22,657 nucleotides of DNA from positions 1 through 22,657 of the IMG/VR virus record IMGVR_UViG_3300017706_001606; one strand, 5' to 3'. Positions 1-20,790 of this stretch are shown in pieces. How positions within the stretch are numbered: the stretch's first letter is position 1; each line of letters starts with the position of its first letter. Made by a program: the position numbers and the translations under genes. Source of the stretch: a virus. Below the pieces are notes generated by a model, which worked only from the letters and a program-made list of their open reading frames with translations, had not been told where the DNA came from and did no database searches.

Positions 1-808
1 TACCTGATGATCCCGAAGTACCTGAAGAACCTGAGTCGCCTGATGTACCTGAAGATCCTGATGTACCTGATGATCCCGAAGTACCTGATGATCCTGAAGT
101 ACCGCTTGAACCTGATGTACCTGAAGATCCCGAAGTACCTGATGATCCCGAAGTACCGCTTGAACCTGATGTACCTGAAGAGCCACTAGTACCTGAGGAA
201 CCTTCACTACCTGGTTTTCCTGAAACCCCAGATGTACCTGAAGTACCTGAGGTACCTGAGGAGCCTGAGTTGCCTGATGTACCCGAGGAACCTGATGTAC
301 CTGAAGATCCTGATGTACCTGATGAGCCTGAAGTACCAGATGAGCCTGAGTCGCCTGAAGTACCTGAAGATCCTGAGGTACCTGAAGATCCTGATGTACC
401 TGAAGATCCTGAAGTACCTGATGAGCCTGATGTTCCTGAAGAACCTGAAGAGCCACTAGTACCTGATGAACCTGAAGTACCGGATGAGCCTGAAGTACCT
501 GATGAGCCTGAAGTGCCTGAAGAGCCTGAAGAGCCACTAGTACCTGATGAACCTGAAGTACCGGATGAGCCTGATGTACCTGAAGAGCCACTAGTACCTG
601 ATGAACCTGAAGTACCGGATGAGCCTGAAGTACCGGATGAGCCTGATGTACCTGAAGAGCCACTAGTACCTGATGAACCCGAGGTACCTGAAGAACCTGA
701 TGTACCCGATGATCCTGAAGTACCTGATGTACCCGAAGTACCCGAAATACCCGAAGTACCCGAAGTACCCGAAGTACCCGCAGTTCCTCCTGTTCCACTA
801 GTTCCTGT
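1..808 (-). repeat. Long 9-bp-periodic tandem repeat coding Gly-X-Y triplets
   Basis: The sense strand repeats GGT-ACT-TCA and GGT-TCA-TCA type codon triplets with a 9-base period, most often paired as an 18-base GTSGSS unit. Synonymous codons vary widely: Ser uses TCA, TCT, TCC, TCG and AGT, and Thr uses ACA, ACT and ACC. Larger duplicated blocks are visible. The plus-strand string ccactagtacctgatgaacc begins at 453, 534 and 588, and nearly unchanged at 660, with spacings of 81, 54 and 72 bases, all multiples of 9. The array runs off the left edge. Confidence 0.95.
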
Positions 809-1288
809 ATAAGAAACTATATAGGGATCTGAGGTAGAACCTTCACCTGTTACCGAAATATCTGTTCCTCCTTGAATATCCACATCTCCTCCTCCAGTGC
901 CATCATTGTAATCTAAACTAATACAAACTATTTCACCTCTAGTAAAGGGGATAGGGGAAGAAAATGCTGATGCTACAGGAGATCCTGTAGGGAAAAAGAA
1001 ATTTATATGATCTGTTCCCTCTGTAACTTCTGTATAAGGAAAAATAACATAAGAAGTTGGGAAATCCTTTGATGAAATTGTTAAGTTACCCTTGTTACTT
1101 CCTGTTAAATACGGTGTTATATTTTTATTAGAAAAATTAGTTTTACTAATGCTAACTTGGGTTGAAGATTGTACGTCATTGTTATAAAAACTTAGACGAC
1201 CACTAGCAGGAGTAATAGAGGGACTAGCCACTATATAAGGAATACAGAAATTCCCTGGGTCTTTATCTATTATAAATTTTTGTGACAT
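1..1288 (-). CDS. Collagen-like Gly-Thr-Ser/Gly-Ser-Ser repeat fibre protein, 3' end beyond window
   Basis: The frame starts at ATG 1288-1286 and stays open to the window edge, giving 429 residues with the C-terminus missing. Residues 1 to about 158 form a non-repetitive N-terminal domain starting MSQKFIIDKDPGNF and ending in a Gly/Asp-rich segment (GGGDVDIQGG, then ISVTGEGSTSDPYIVS). From about residue 160 to the edge the protein is an almost pure Gly-X-Y array of GTS and GSS triplets. It is interrupted once (about 203-238) by GVSGKPGSEG. Such arrays occur in phage tail-fibre and collagen-like virion proteins, so a stalk projecting from baseplate or capsid is likely. It follows the hub and the 201-residue protein in the same transcription unit, with a copy of the AT-rich upstream motif 20 bases before the start. 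Function in host binding is inferred. The N-terminal domain is not recognised. Confidence 0.85.
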   Translation of the reverse strand, partial: MSQKFIIDKDPGNFCIPYIVASPSITPASGRLSFYNNDVQSSTQVSISKTNFSNKNITPYLTGSNKGNLTISSKDFPTSYVIFPYTEVTEGTDHINFFFPTGSPVASAFSSPIPFTRGEIVCISLDYNDGTGGGDVDIQGGTDISVTGEGSTSDPYIVSYTGTSGTGGTAGTSGTSGTSGISGTSGTSGTSGSSGTSGSSGTSGSSGTSGSSGTSGSSGTSGSSGTSGSSGTSGSSGTSGSSGTSGSSGTSGSSGSSGTSGSSGTSGSSGTSGSSGTSGSSGSSGTSGSSGTSGSSGTSGSSGTSGSSGTSGDSGSSGTSGSSGTSGSSGTSGSSGTSGNSGSSGTSGTSGTSGVSGKPGSEGSSGTSGSSGTSGSSGTSGSSGTSGSSGTSGSSGTSGSSGTSGSSGTSGSSGTSGDSGSSGTSGSSG

Positions 1289-16903: not shown

Positions 16904-17614
16904 TTATAAAGCTTTAGCTATAACATTAAATGTGTAAATTCCAGATGTATCTAATACAAGTCTGCCATCATTTATAAATCTAAAAGATGCATCTGAAGTA
17001 TCTCCTATACCGTGGATTGAGGTTTCCGTAAAGTCTACGGATGATCCATCAAAACATCCTATAACAGTTCCTGTTCTAAGGTTAGAACCATTTTTAATTT
17101 TATATTCAGCATGAACCGCATCATAATCCCCAAAATCGAATATAGTTGCTCCATCTGAGACTGTTGATCCCGTAATATTTCTAACAAGTGTAGTGTCTAT
17201 AAAAATAGAACCAGATAAATTAGTAGTTTTACCTCTTATATCAAGGGGAGTTGATGCATCACCCATTTGAAGGCGACCATTTGCCGGTTGAGAGTCATTA
17301 GTGGATCTAAAAATAACTTGATCAACTTCATCAAGCATTGCTGATCCACTATAAATGTTTATGTCGCCATGAAATACAGGATTACCAAAAAGATTAGAAT
17401 CATTGGCAAATTGTATAGATGAACTAAGAAATGTTAATTCAGTTACATTTTTAATAGTAAGAGGTGAATTACCTTCAATTGTTGTAGTTTTAAGGTGTTT
17501 AAATGAACCCGTAAGTGATCCACTGATATTACCTGAGGCTGTGATTTCTCCTACTAAAAGAGAATTTAAATTGGCATTACTGCCTGAAGTTATTACTTTT
17601 TTCCAGTTAGGCAT
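16904..17614 (-). CDS. Fibre-like virion protein with WKKVI-SGS N-terminus (236 aa)
   Basis: Starts MPNWKKVITSGSNANLNSLL followed by short Ser/Gly/Thr-rich beta repeats (ASGNISGSLTGSF, FKHLKTTTIEG). The C-terminal domain has SIHGIGDTSDASFRFINDGR and ends LDTSGIYTFNVIAKAL. The start is shared with the 368-residue protein (MAEWRKVIVSGSRAEL), so both probably carry the same attachment module. Beta-rich repeats and the lack of enzymatic motifs fit a short fibre or decoration protein. It precedes the neck genes and follows the folded leader at 17631-17676. The start ATG at 17614 has only A/T-rich sequence before it. Confidence 0.75.
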   Translation of the reverse strand: MPNWKKVITSGSNANLNSLLVGEITASGNISGSLTGSFKHLKTTTIEGNSPLTIKNVTELTFLSSSIQFANDSNLFGNPVFHGDINIYSGSAMLDEVDQVIFRSTNDSQPANGRLQMGDASTPLDIRGKTTNLSGSIFIDTTLVRNITGSTVSDGATIFDFGDYDAVHAEYKIKNGSNLRTGTVIGCFDGSSVDFTETSIHGIGDTSDASFRFINDGRLVLDTSGIYTFNVIAKAL

Positions 17615-17630
17615 ACTTTTTTATATTGTG

Positions 17631-17676
17631 GTTGGCTACACCAAAAGTGCGGTGCCCACTTCCCTTACGGGCCAAC
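17631..17676 (-). ncRNA. Compact GC-rich folded leader with possible pseudoknot
   Basis: In RNA sense (minus strand) GUUGGC (17676-17671) pairs with GCCAAC (17636-17631), closing two inner hairpins. The first is CCC-GUAA-GGG, with a GNRA-type loop and one C shared with the closing helix. The second is AAGUG-GGCACCG-CACUU. The loop CACC (17654-17651) can also pair with GGUG (17642-17639), making a pseudoknot. The segment is visibly richer in G+C than its surroundings. It lies just after a terminator and 16 bases before the 236-residue gene's ATG, so a 5' leader element or processed small RNA is plausible. No known riboswitch class matches by eye. Confidence 0.5.
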
Positions 17677-17694
17677 AATTTAGTATAAATACAT

Positions 17695-17720
17695 AAAAAG
17701 GATCACTTATTTGTGATCCT
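17695..17720 (-). terminator. Rho-independent terminator after the miniprotein pair
   Basis: Stem AGGATCAC with GTGATCCT (17720-17713 with 17706-17699), six-base loop, followed in the minus direction by a run of T. The plus direction also shows CTTTGTTTTTG, so it may be bidirectional. The stop codon of the 53-residue gene (17705-17703) lies inside the 3' arm, so translation and termination could interfere. Confidence 0.85.
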
Positions 17721-17864
17721 CTTTGTTTTTGTTTTATTTAGGTCGGAAATATTTGTTTCTAATTTTGCTTGTAAAGAAGCAACTCTTTGAGCATCTGATC
17801 CTTTTATGTTTATATGGTTTAATGATTCTCTTAGTACACTTAATTCTTCAACTGTATAACTCAT
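17703..17864 (-). CDS. Miniprotein, unknown, coupled to upstream gene (53 aa)
   Basis: Frame begins MSYTVEELSVLRESLNHINI and continues KGSDAQRVASLQAKLETNIS, then a Lys/Thr/Asn-rich tail. It is charged and helical with no hydrophobic segment. Its ATG overlaps the stop of the preceding 57-residue gene as ATGA, a classic coupling arrangement, which argues for real translation. The last codons run into the terminator hairpin. The helical pattern suggests a small protein-binding or assembly factor; no family is recognised. Confidence 0.65.
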   Translation of the reverse strand: MSYTVEELSVLRESLNHINIKGSDAQRVASLQAKLETNISDLNKTKTKRITNK

Positions 17865-18034
17865 TTTATATTAACGTATTGGTTTTGTAACTTAACTACT
17901 ACTTTGTAAAGCATATCTAAATCTTTACCTTTGAAAGTAGATTCTTTAATAGTATTTAATATAAATTCTATTTCTTGTTTCTCCAAACTATTGGGAGTAG
18001 ATTTTTGTGGGGATATTTTATCTAATAAGGACAT
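17861..18034 (-). CDS. Miniprotein, unknown, MSLLDK start (57 aa)
   Basis: Frame starts MSLLDKISPQKSTPNSLEKQ, followed by EIEFILNTIKESTFKGKDLD and MLYKVVVKLQNQYVNIK. A flexible N-terminus leads into two amphipathic helices with no membrane segment. It begins 18 bases after the 368-residue gene and ends in an ATGA overlap with the 53-residue gene. A one-mismatch copy of the AT-rich upstream motif lies at 18046-18054. The short start resembles that of the 91-residue baseplate-operon protein. Function unknown. Confidence 0.68.
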   Translation of the reverse strand: MSLLDKISPQKSTPNSLEKQEIEFILNTIKESTFKGKDLDMLYKVVVKLQNQYVNIK

Positions 18035-18045
18035 AACTTTTTTAA

Positions 18046-18054
18046 TTAAATATT
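18046..18054 (-). promoter_or_regulatory. AT-rich upstream motif, variant copy
   Basis: TTAAATATT, one mismatch, 12 bases before the 57-residue miniprotein ATG. It overlaps the stop of the 368-residue gene. Confidence 0.3.
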
Positions 18055-19159
18055 AAACATAAATAAAAATATCGTCGGAGGCATCAATTTTAATATTTCC
18101 TCTTTGTTGATATAAAGCTATATCAGTTTGAGAGGCATCTATATCAATCACCATAGCGACGTAAGCATCGGCTGTAAAAGTAGTGGAATTAGCAGCAAAA
18201 CTACTTGTAACACCAAATCTACCTACATTTGAGGATGCGGCTGCATCATAACCAAATAATACTCCTTTATCTTGAACATTTTGTTGAACTACAAAACCAC
18301 CAGGAGAATTATCAGTACTAGAACCAGAATTTAACAAGATAAATTGGTCAGCAACTTCTAGATTTTTTGTACTTTGGAAAGACGCAGTACCCTGAACAAC
18401 AAGATCTTTATTAATTGTGATAACATTACCTGAGAATGTCCTGTTACCTGAAATAGTATCTGCTAATCCAATAGTATATGAAGGACCACCACCTAATGCT
18501 TGAGCTGCTGTTCCAGTAATATCAATTTCACCCGAAGTTTGGGTTAAAGTAATTGTAGTATTACCTTCTACAGCATCACCTGCTGAAGAACCATAATCTA
18601 CAGTTAATGTAGCTGCTCCTGAACCATCAAAAGTACCATTGTTAGAAGATAAACCAGTTCCTGCTGTTAAGGCATTTGGTACTTTGAGAACAGATAACGT
18701 ATTGCTTGATACTTCAATTGTGCTAGTATCGGCAACGTTAGCATTTAACATTGTGCCCTCTACGGAAGTTGCTTGAATTGTCGAAACTCCTCCAGTATCT
18801 ACATTGACGTCTCCTGCAATAGTATTAAGGATAGATCCTGTTGCTGCCTCAGCAATCATAGACAATTCAACTGCATTATTTGCAATTGTTAAAACTCCTG
18901 TACCACCAGCAACTGTGGCATCCCCACTTATTTTTTGAAGTGTATAATCAGCAAGAGCAGAAGCAGTAGTAAATTTACTAGCTCCGTCGTTTACAAACAC
19001 TTTTGTAGCATTTGCTGGGGCTATATACGTTGTTGGGAAACTGGCAGCTACTCCTGAAAGGCCACTACCATCTCCAAAAAATGAACCACTAAATGATCCT
19101 GATGCATCCACCAGTTCTGCTCTGGATCCTGATACTATTACTTTTCTCCACTCTGCCAT
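18053..19159 (-). CDS. Fibre-like virion protein (368 aa)
   Basis: Starts MAEWRKVIVSGSRAELVDAS, then SGSFSGSFFGDGSGLSG, a motif common near the N-terminus of marine phage fibres. A long Ser/Thr/Val/Ala-rich beta-repeat region follows (about 80-260). The C-terminal ~110 residues (STKNLEVADQFILLNSGSST, GGFVVQQNVQDKGVLFGYDA) form a globular-looking domain. The N-terminal module is shared with the 236-residue protein. It probably forms part of a tail fibre or capsid decoration; receptor binding is inferred only. It lies 29 bases downstream of the long Gly-Thr-Ser stalk gene. Confidence 0.75.
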   Translation of the reverse strand: MAEWRKVIVSGSRAELVDASGSFSGSFFGDGSGLSGVAASFPTTYIAPANATKVFVNDGASKFTTASALADYTLQKISGDATVAGGTGVLTIANNAVELSMIAEAATGSILNTIAGDVNVDTGGVSTIQATSVEGTMLNANVADTSTIEVSSNTLSVLKVPNALTAGTGLSSNNGTFDGSGAATLTVDYGSSAGDAVEGNTTITLTQTSGEIDITGTAAQALGGGPSYTIGLADTISGNRTFSGNVITINKDLVVQGTASFQSTKNLEVADQFILLNSGSSTDNSPGGFVVQQNVQDKGVLFGYDAAASSNVGRFGVTSSFAANSTTFTADAYVAMVIDIDASQTDIALYQQRGNIKIDASDDIFIYV

Positions 19160-19188: not shown

Positions 19189-20790
19189 TTATTCTATCCC
19201 CAAATAAAAACTTCCACTACCATAGTACATTCCGCCTTCTATTGGAGTAGGTTGGACTTTGGAATTTGGATGTAAGTCAGTAAATACAGGAATACCTTCA
19301 CTAGTGATTTTATATCGAGTTGCAGAGGATGTAGTAATAAGTACTACATCATTTTGCCCATTTACTTGTCCTCTAAAAGATGACGCAGCTAGTTTTCCTG
19401 TAAATTTACCATTTGAACCTGAGATAGATGTTAATTGATTTGAAGCGCCTTTTACTGATATTCCTGCAGATGTAGCTGTTAAAGTTGCTTCTTTAGTCTT
19501 AGTAGAAGCATTTACAAATTCAATTGTAGAATCAAAAGTCCTAATATGACCTATAGAAGCTGTATTAAAATAATTACTATCATCTCCTAAATTATACAAT
19601 AAATCACCATCAGGTATTATATGACCCCTAGCTACTAAAAGTTCAAATGATCCTGTAGGGGCTTGTACACTGCCTGTTATAGATAATAAAGATCCAGTAA
19701 ATCTTAAATTTTCTTCAGCTAATAAGCCTGATGTGGTTCCAGTAGATCTTATAACCCTAAATGCTTCTGGGTTTGAAACCGTAGCTCCATCAACACCTGA
19801 AGTGCCCGAGCTACCTGAAGTACCAGATGTACCAAAATTATCTCCTATTACTATAGTTACATTAGAGGAACTTCCAATACTATAAGAAGCATTGTCTCCT
19901 TCTACATAAGATACTGTTAAATTATAAAATGTTTCACTAATGTCAACATTTACACTTGTAATATTCCATTGGTCTATATTACCTCCATTAACTATTTTTA
20001 TAATACCTTTATCAAAGGCATCTAAATCTTCAAGAAAAGTTAAATGAGAAGTACCCCCATTATCGGTTATGTGAAGTCTAATAATAGTTATACTACCTGG
20101 AGTAGTACTATTTGATGTAAAATCTCCAGAAGGAGGTGTACCACCAGTTCCCCTAAATAAGTAAGTTTTACTAGGTAATATTAAATCCGCACCATCAATT
20201 CCACTAGTACCACTAGAACCTGAAGTGCCTGAAGAACCTGAAGTGCCTGAAGAACCACTAGATCCTGATGTTCCAGAAGAGCCTGATGTACCTGAAGAAC
20301 CTGAGGTACCACTTGAACCTGAGGTGCCTGAAGAACCACTAGTACCTGAAGAACCTGAAGTACCAGAAGAACCACTAGTACCTGAGCTGCCTGAAGTTCC
20401 TGAAGAACCTGATGTTCCTGAAGAACCTGAAGTGCCTGATGATCCACTTGTACCACTTGAACCTGAAGTGCCTGAAGTACCGCTTGAACCTGAAGTACCT
20501 GATGATCCACTTGTTCCCGAAGAACCTGAAGTACCAGAAGAACCACTAGTACCTGAAGAACCTGAGGTGCCACTCGAACCCGAAGTACCTGAGGTACCAG
20601 GTTTACCTGAAGCACCCTCATTTATGGTTACTACTTTAGTATTTTCTTCCTGGACAATTAAGTTTGTTTGGGGTAATTCAATAGTAACAGACTTATTACA
20701 AATATTATCTGTAATAATAACCTTTTCATTCTGATCTTGTAGAATGATTTGGTTTGGTTGGTCTGATATGTTAATTGAGTTACGACCCAT
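19189..20790 (-). CDS. Long-stalk collagen-like fibre protein (533 aa)
   Basis: Residues 1 to about 58 are an N-terminal module containing VIITDNICNKSV, related to the 210-residue neighbour. A GASGKPG hinge then leads into an almost pure GTS/GSS Gly-X-Y array (about 62-198), ending GIDGADLILPSKTYLF. After a ~115-residue beta domain a second short array occurs (GTSGTSGSSGTSGVDG, about 320-333). The C-terminal ~200 residues carry HIIPDGDLLYNLGDDSNYF, a repeat seen in tail fibres, and end YYGSGSFYLGIE. The layout of anchor, stalk, head, short stalk and tip suggests an adhesin. Repeats and motifs are seen directly; host binding is inferred. TAATG coupling links it to the upstream gene. Confidence 0.85.
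   Translation of the reverse strand: MGRNSINISDQPNQIILQDQNEKVIITDNICNKSVTIELPQTNLIVQEENTKVVTINEGASGKPGTSGTSGSSGTSGSSGTSGSSGTSGSSGTSGSSGTSGSSGTSGTSGSSGTSGSSGTSGSSGTSGSSGTSGSSGTSGSSGTSGSSGTSGSSGTSGSSGTSGSSGTSGSSGTSGSSGSSGTSGSSGTSGSSGTSGIDGADLILPSKTYLFRGTGGTPPSGDFTSNSTTPGSITIIRLHITDNGGTSHLTFLEDLDAFDKGIIKIVNGGNIDQWNITSVNVDISETFYNLTVSYVEGDNASYSIGSSSNVTIVIGDNFGTSGTSGSSGTSGVDGATVSNPEAFRVIRSTGTTSGLLAEENLRFTGSLLSITGSVQAPTGSFELLVARGHIIPDGDLLYNLGDDSNYFNTASIGHIRTFDSTIEFVNASTKTKEATLTATSAGISVKGASNQLTSISGSNGKFTGKLAASSFRGQVNGQNDVVLITTSSATRYKITSEGIPVFTDLHPNSKVQPTPIEGGMYYGSGSFYLGIE
20197..20613 (-). repeat. 9-bp-periodic Gly-X-Y coding repeat, second copy
   Basis: About 46 consecutive Gly-Thr-Ser or Gly-Ser-Ser triplets, mostly alternating, with varied synonymous codons. 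It shares many exact short words with the array at 1-808, such as cctgaagaaccactagtacc, despite lying about 20 kb away in the same orientation. Confidence 0.93.

Follow-up and report, generated by a model that had tools for sequence, protein, structure and literature searches.

We identified a small structured leader RNA upstream of a fibre-like gene in a stretch of viral DNA of 22,657 nucleotides (IMG/VR record IMGVR_UViG_3300017706_001606; hereafter the window). The RNA belongs to an uncatalogued family of structured leader RNAs of about 55-75 nt, which occur once per genome in a large group of aquatic T4-like phages. The family is real, new and widespread, and its structure is secure; from comparison of the copies we infer a role in expression, and the RNA probably controls the expression of the fibre-like gene that follows it.

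The element spans window positions 17679-17625 on the minus strand, and a gap of 10 nt separates its 3' end from the start codon of the fibre-like gene (16904-17614, minus strand), an open reading frame of 236 residues with the N-terminus MPNWKKVI. The initial annotation of this DNA had described a G+C-rich stretch between a terminator and the gene, and had placed a compact structured RNA in the 5' leader of the gene. The G+C-rich stretch is present, on the minus strand, flanked by a terminator-like hairpin (17724-17695) and by the start codon of the gene (ATG at 17614), and both homologues and covariation agree with a conserved leader RNA. The extent given at the time, 17631-17676, covered the right region but was slightly too narrow, because the closing helix requires 17679-17672 together with 17631-17625.

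Architecture and covariation of the leader RNA

We collected 96 deduplicated copies of the RNA; their alignment was anchored on conserved sequence and took no account of pairing. The fold is a three-way junction consisting of a helix with a one-base bulge (P1), a short hairpin that often carries a GNRA cap (P2) and a hairpin with a two-base bulge (P3), connected by junction strands of 0, 3 (AAG) and 1 (A) nt. All parts lie on the minus strand. The 5' strand of P1 (17672-17679; AUUGU, the bulged U17674, and GG) pairs with the 3' strand CC-ACAAU (17625-17631), and the helix is paired to 97.5%. Among the copies, P1 is laid out as the GG/CC pairs, the one-base bulge and then typically at least five more pairs. 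The three pairs adjacent to the bulge are standard in 96/96 copies, using several pair types, and GG/CC is changed to GA/UC in Flavobacterium phage immuto.

P2 is the hairpin CCC-GUAA-GGG (17662-17671), with two C-G pairs and a covarying third pair, and corresponds to the GNRA-type hairpin that had already been recognized in the initial annotation; the loop is GNRA in at least 43 of the 96 copies. In the junction strand J2/3 (AAG, 17659-17661), G17659 is invariant and the preceding two bases are nearly always AA. P3 (17633-17658) combines alternating lower pairs with a covarying upper stem. It is built from the lower stem UGG/CCA (17656-17658 with 17633-17635), a G.U pair (17655-17638), the two-nucleotide bulge AG (17636-17637) and the upper stem CACC/GGUG (17651-17654 with 17639-17642), which is closed by an 8-nt loop. 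The same order is seen across the copies, with a lower stem that is either UGG/CCA (70/96) or UAG/CUA (26/96), followed by a purine-uracil pair, the two-base bulge and an upper stem of variable sequence. J3/1 consists of a single A (17632), which is invariant across the alignments.

Compensatory change is seen in every helix in the pairing-blind alignment of the 96 copies. In a MAFFT alignment of 40 sequences, the three-way junction is paired in 97.3% of cells, and 13 of the 17 pairs in the model are doubly changed, with 110 doubly changed cells compared to a mean of 30.2 after shuffling. When the partners are slid against each other as a control, pairing falls to 25-47%. Unconstrained RNAalifold returned the identical three-way junction. 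We also compared covariation with a null in which substitutions were replayed on a tree; the tree-null values were not fully seeded and vary slightly between reruns. In a 58-column alignment, the eight column pairs that covary most strongly against this null all belong to the model, and the pairs of the P3 upper stem rank among the strongest covariers, while four model pairs never vary and three others score no better than the null. On the tree 59 double changes were counted, a number that is approximate because the tree was derived from the same short alignment.

Folding energy does not single the element out, as 17625-17685 folds no more stably than shuffled sequences do (minimum free energy, z = -0.01). 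For a segment with full P1 and some 3' flank, the minimum free energy structure is the three-way junction (-16.2 kcal/mol). The energy gap between the junction and the predicted minimum has a median of 1.7 kcal/mol in the 96 copies, and is at most 3 kcal/mol in 66 of them. The proof of the structure rests on covariation, not on energy.

The comparison leads to a different pairing scheme from the one initially drawn, which as a whole is paired in 72.4% of cells in the 40-sequence alignment, compared to the 97.3% of the three-way junction. The proposed 6-bp closing helix GUUGGC/GCCAAC is paired to 64.7%, with two of its six pairs failing in 30/40 and 37/40 sequences, and the halves of the proposed 5-bp hairpin AAGUG/CACUU are paired in 36.1% and 46.5% of cells. 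An H-type pseudoknot would require the stem of that hairpin, which is not conserved; with neither the closing helix nor the hairpin conserved, nothing in the alignment speaks for a pseudoknot. The pairing of a loop with the 3' strand (CACC/GGUG), on which the pseudoknot was based, is real and covaries, but forms the ordinary upper stem of P3. Covariation among homologous leaders, which had been suggested as a check, thus bears out the element itself but not the pairings first assigned to it.

Wobble pairs indicate which strand is folded. The innermost P1 pair is U.G in 37/96 copies, and the purine-uracil pair of P3 is G.U in 36/40 sequences. On the other strand these would be A.C mismatches, and therefore the RNA corresponds to the sense strand of the gene. 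The conservation of the fibre-like protein at its N-terminus and its divergence beyond would be compatible with a DNA-level recombination or cruciform element that aids the exchange of fibre modules. We consider such an element very improbable, since the G.U and U.G wobbles tolerated at several pairs fit an RNA and not a DNA cruciform.

Distribution and the gene downstream

We used the 236-residue product for a protein search of IMG/VR and retained the best 80 of 327 related stretches. On inspection, nearly all of these best 80 of 327 protein-selected loci have the same RNA upstream. We trained a covariance model on 40 diverse copies, which include some from protein-selected and some from pattern-selected loci; it gives exactly one match in 80/80 of the protein-selected loci (best 80 of 327; E <=4e-8). 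A DNA-pattern search yielded at least 120 loci; among those listed, 117/120 have a model match, one each, and the three loci without a match (L086, L170 and L193) were dropped. The protein-selected and pattern-selected sets overlap in some contigs. Whole records gave one match at E <1e-8 in 13/13 cases, with a second, chance-level match in one of the 13 (E 0.23); the records include Flavobacterium phage immuto, with a single match in its complete genome of 160 kb.

In a cellular collection of 84,980 species the pattern matches eight contigs. Two of these (L205 and L209), both metagenome-assembled, are confirmed by the model and have the RNA before an MP-W-K-K start. L205 is binned as Candidatus Pelagibacter and L209 as Flavobacteriales, and both carry the phage cassette; they are probably phage contigs inside cellular bins. 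The other six contigs have an E-value of 0.009 or worse, or no model match, and were dropped as chance.

The position of the RNA relative to the gene varies little. Among the matches listed, 195/197 loci have an MP[N/S/A]W[K/R/N] start within 130 nt of the RNA, and homing-endonuclease genes interpose between the RNA and the fibre gene in the other two. From their motifs we take the interposed genes to be HNH-like in L088 and GIY-YIG-like in L149. They lie approximately 15-260 nt (L088) and 16-740 nt (L149) downstream of the RNA, and in L088 the HNH-like reading frame and the fibre gene begin with the same ATGCCAAATT. The distance from the CC of the RNA to the ATG is 12-24 nt in 86/88 measured copies, corresponding to 5-20 nt between the end of P1 and the start codon, and is 118 and 128 nt in the other two. 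Insertions of about 100 nt, which leave the RNA intact and the start codon 118-128 nt off, are found in L097, L171 and L190. On the minus strand of the window, no terminator-like site was found that would separate the RNA from the fibre gene. This, together with the 12-24 nt spacing, argues against a stand-alone small phage RNA, which the initial annotation had also considered.

Neither Pfam nor PHROG gave a match for the 236-residue protein, and its predicted structure has a mean pLDDT of 36; the label 'fibre-like' rests on the annotation of the immuto relative. A paralogue is encoded upstream (MAEWRKVIVSGS, 368 residues, 18053-19159, minus strand). In most of these phages the adjacent paralogues share the N-terminal motif M-x-x-W-K/R-K-V-I-x-SGS. 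The RNA goes with the downstream MP-W-K-K paralogue, and the leader of the upstream paralogue, which usually begins with MA, is without it, the record of the window having a single model match. One MA start was positive by a loose pattern; the model gives no second match in any locus.

Other repeat-containing frames are found in the window. A tail-fibre-like gene at 19189-20790 contains long GSSGTS collagen-like repeats. At 270-812 on the plus strand there is a mirror open frame of the PDEPEVPEEP type, which suggests a second gene of this kind, on the minus strand and truncated by the left end of the window (1-812).

Transcript context and possible roles

Conservation of a short motif, TATTTATA in the window (17684-17691, minus strand, sense orientation), points to a late-promoter element in front of the RNA. 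The sequence TAT[TG]TAT occurs within 32 nt of the GG of the RNA in 71/96 copies, and a purine is located 11 nt after the first T of the motif in 70 of these 71. The corresponding position in the window, an A at 17680 (minus strand), is the predicted transcription start and lies one nucleotide before P1. P1 starts 12-13 nt after the first T in 31/71 copies, which is 1-2 nt past the predicted start. In immuto, the same sense-strand motif precedes the terL, portal, sheath, tube and tape-measure genes, and we therefore infer that it is the late promoter of this phage group. Read in sense, TATTTATA is identical to the reverse complement of TATAAATA, the late promoter of T4. The gene for the upstream paralogue has the same promoter motif. 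By consensus match, the terminator-like hairpin (17695-17724, minus strand) is located upstream of the motif in the window.

Where the motif adjoins, the fibre mRNA would begin with this RNA. Such a location would suit a 5'-terminal stabilizer, in which the junction seals the 5' end of the late fibre mRNA and protects it from end-dependent decay or processing. The motif within 32 nt in most copies, the start of P1 directly past the predicted transcription start and the terminator-like hairpin upstream of the motif are all consistent with this role, and because P1 is near the predicted start of the transcript in most copies, a function in stability suits them equally well. However, 8/96 copies, from another clade, have the stop codon of a small open reading frame 6-9 nt before the GG of the RNA and no promoter motif nearby, and therefore the RNA is internal, or intercistronic, in that clade. 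Also, the bulge, the wobble and the junction bases are conserved far more than a simple cap requires, and the other late genes of immuto that have the promoter motif lack the RNA, with one match in that genome. Stabilization of the mRNA is the strongest rival where the promoter adjoins, but leaves the internal clade unexplained, and we consider it unlikely as the general function.

We hypothesize that the RNA is a cis-acting control element of the mRNA of the fibre-like gene, which most likely acts on translation initiation, and we assign this reading a probability of roughly one half. A covarying, conserved structure on the sense strand, in a fixed position before one gene, characterizes cis-regulatory structured leader RNAs in general and is present here. 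P1 is short, A+U-rich, bulged and tolerant of wobble pairs, and would be located inside the region that the ribosome must occupy. With a weak, bulged P1 at the ribosome site and a conserved junction, a translational gate appears the simplest mechanism. The folded junction would keep P1 shut and restrain the fibre gene. A strong Shine-Dalgarno sequence is present in 12/96 copies, and overlaps with P1 in 8 of these 12, so that P1 often covers the Shine-Dalgarno sequence in the clade that has a strong one. In the clade where the RNA is intercistronic, the ribosome-binding site is overlapped by P1. Masking of the Shine-Dalgarno sequence cannot be the mechanism everywhere, since nothing like this sequence is present in 73/96 copies.

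Binding or release of a partner would then shift the balance, with a phage protein as the first candidate and a metabolite as the second; alternatively, the trigger may be a ribosome that finishes the small upstream open reading frame. No conserved alternative (switching) pairing was found among the copies. We rejected a switch pairing of UUGGC with AUGCCAA in the start region, for which covariation is lacking between the bulge base and the third position of codon 2. A plausible purpose of translational control would be to set the amount or timing of the fibre relative to the paralogue without the RNA; the two proteins share the N-terminal motif, and the paralogue may use the same docking site on the virion. 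We tentatively propose, as one possible form of this control, that a protein- or ligand-operated three-way junction gates the translation of one of two virion fibres that may compete for a docking site.

The protein partner could be encoded next to the RNA. Two small open reading frames on the minus strand, u1 (17703-17864, 53 residues) and u2 (17861-18034, 57 residues, overlapping u1), are conserved neighbours in the cassette. Small reading frames of about 50-85 residues, which form one similarity cluster, are located directly upstream of the RNA in 88/96 loci. This arrangement would favour autogenous control, a sub-case of translational control in which u1, u2 or the fibre itself binds the RNA. 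However, the shared N-terminal motif is also present in the paralogue without the RNA, and therefore the motif cannot by itself be what binds. The small proteins match no Pfam family, and PHROG gives only weak matches, to families of unknown function; they are candidate regulators, but could also be fibre chaperones. We regard autogenous control as somewhat unlikely.

If a metabolite were the partner, the RNA would be a riboswitch with the junction as aptamer and P1 as expression platform. The conserved junction and bulge nucleotides between covarying helices would be in line with such a function, and candidate or known riboswitches are reported for T4-like cyanophages and a marine methylophage (PMC2864571, PMC9004378). 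We nevertheless find a riboswitch improbable, because a junction of 0, 3 and 1 nt is small, the downstream gene encodes a virion protein and not a metabolic one, and glnA, Downstream-peptide and the other Rfam riboswitch models gave no match at E <=10 in the scanned stretches.

The RNA is tied to one structural gene at every related locus examined, covaries strongly and falls outside Rfam 15, which suggests an RNA-level control of late virion genes in these aquatic T4-like phages that escapes annotation pipelines. If the gating of one of two fibres is true, the RNA would be a phage RNA switch of a new class, through which a widely distributed group of these phages adjusts the ratio or timing of the two. 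The function of the RNA is directly testable, since there is a cultivated carrier, Flavobacterium phage immuto, with the host Flavobacterium sp. LMO8. The covariance model doubles as a marker for the phage group.

Comparison with known RNAs

The absence of a known riboswitch or ribozyme class, which the initial annotation had noted, is upheld by Rfam 15. At gathering thresholds there were 0 matches in the whole window and 0 in 11 loci. At E <=10, the window has only chance-level matches around the RNA, and no riboswitch or ribozyme among them; eight loci gave five matches in 20 kb, all far below gathering, to unrelated sRNA, microRNA and snoRNA families, and none assignable to the RNA.

Two known junction RNAs were rejected as relatives. 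The core of the hammerhead ribozyme contains the boxes CUGAUGA and GAAA; the junction strands here are AAG and A instead, and there is no Rfam match. The glutamine riboswitch (glnA, RF01739; Downstream-peptide, RF01704) presumably shares with our RNA GGAAGUAGG and a junction of P1 with two hairpins. It is characterized by a loop-E motif, AGUA/GAA, beside P3 and by a 3' GAAGGAAC. In the fibre-leader RNA, U(G/A)G pairs with C(C/U)A, and AACC is found and no GAAGGAAC; the Rfam models gave no match at E <=10 in the scanned stretches. Where the glutamine riboswitch has GAA as the partner strand in loop E, the fibre-leader RNA has the UAG/CUA pairing, and the gene context differs as well.

Among regulatory leaders, the ompA leader has a 5'-terminal stabilizing stem-loop. 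The fibre-leader RNA resembles stem-loops of this type in that the transcript is structured at its 5' end or close to it, but differs by its conserved junction sequence and its internal position in one clade. T4 uses translational operators, such as the gene 32 pseudoknot and the gp43 operator. The likeness to these operators lies in a structured leader in the mRNA of a T4-like phage that would restrain one gene; the fold, the gene and the phage group are different.

We found no description of the fibre-leader RNA in the open-licence literature, and in the accessible part of the paper on Baltic Flavobacterium phages the terms 'promoter' and 'RNA structure' do not occur. In marine phages, a glutamine riboswitch has been reported (PMC9004378), and structured leader RNAs, the manA and wcaG motifs, have been described in T4-like marine cyanophages (Weinberg 2010, PMC2864571). 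The manA and wcaG motifs are close in kind, being structured leader RNAs of T4-like marine phages. They lead metabolic genes, however, whereas the fibre-leader RNA, without a match in Rfam, leads one structural gene.
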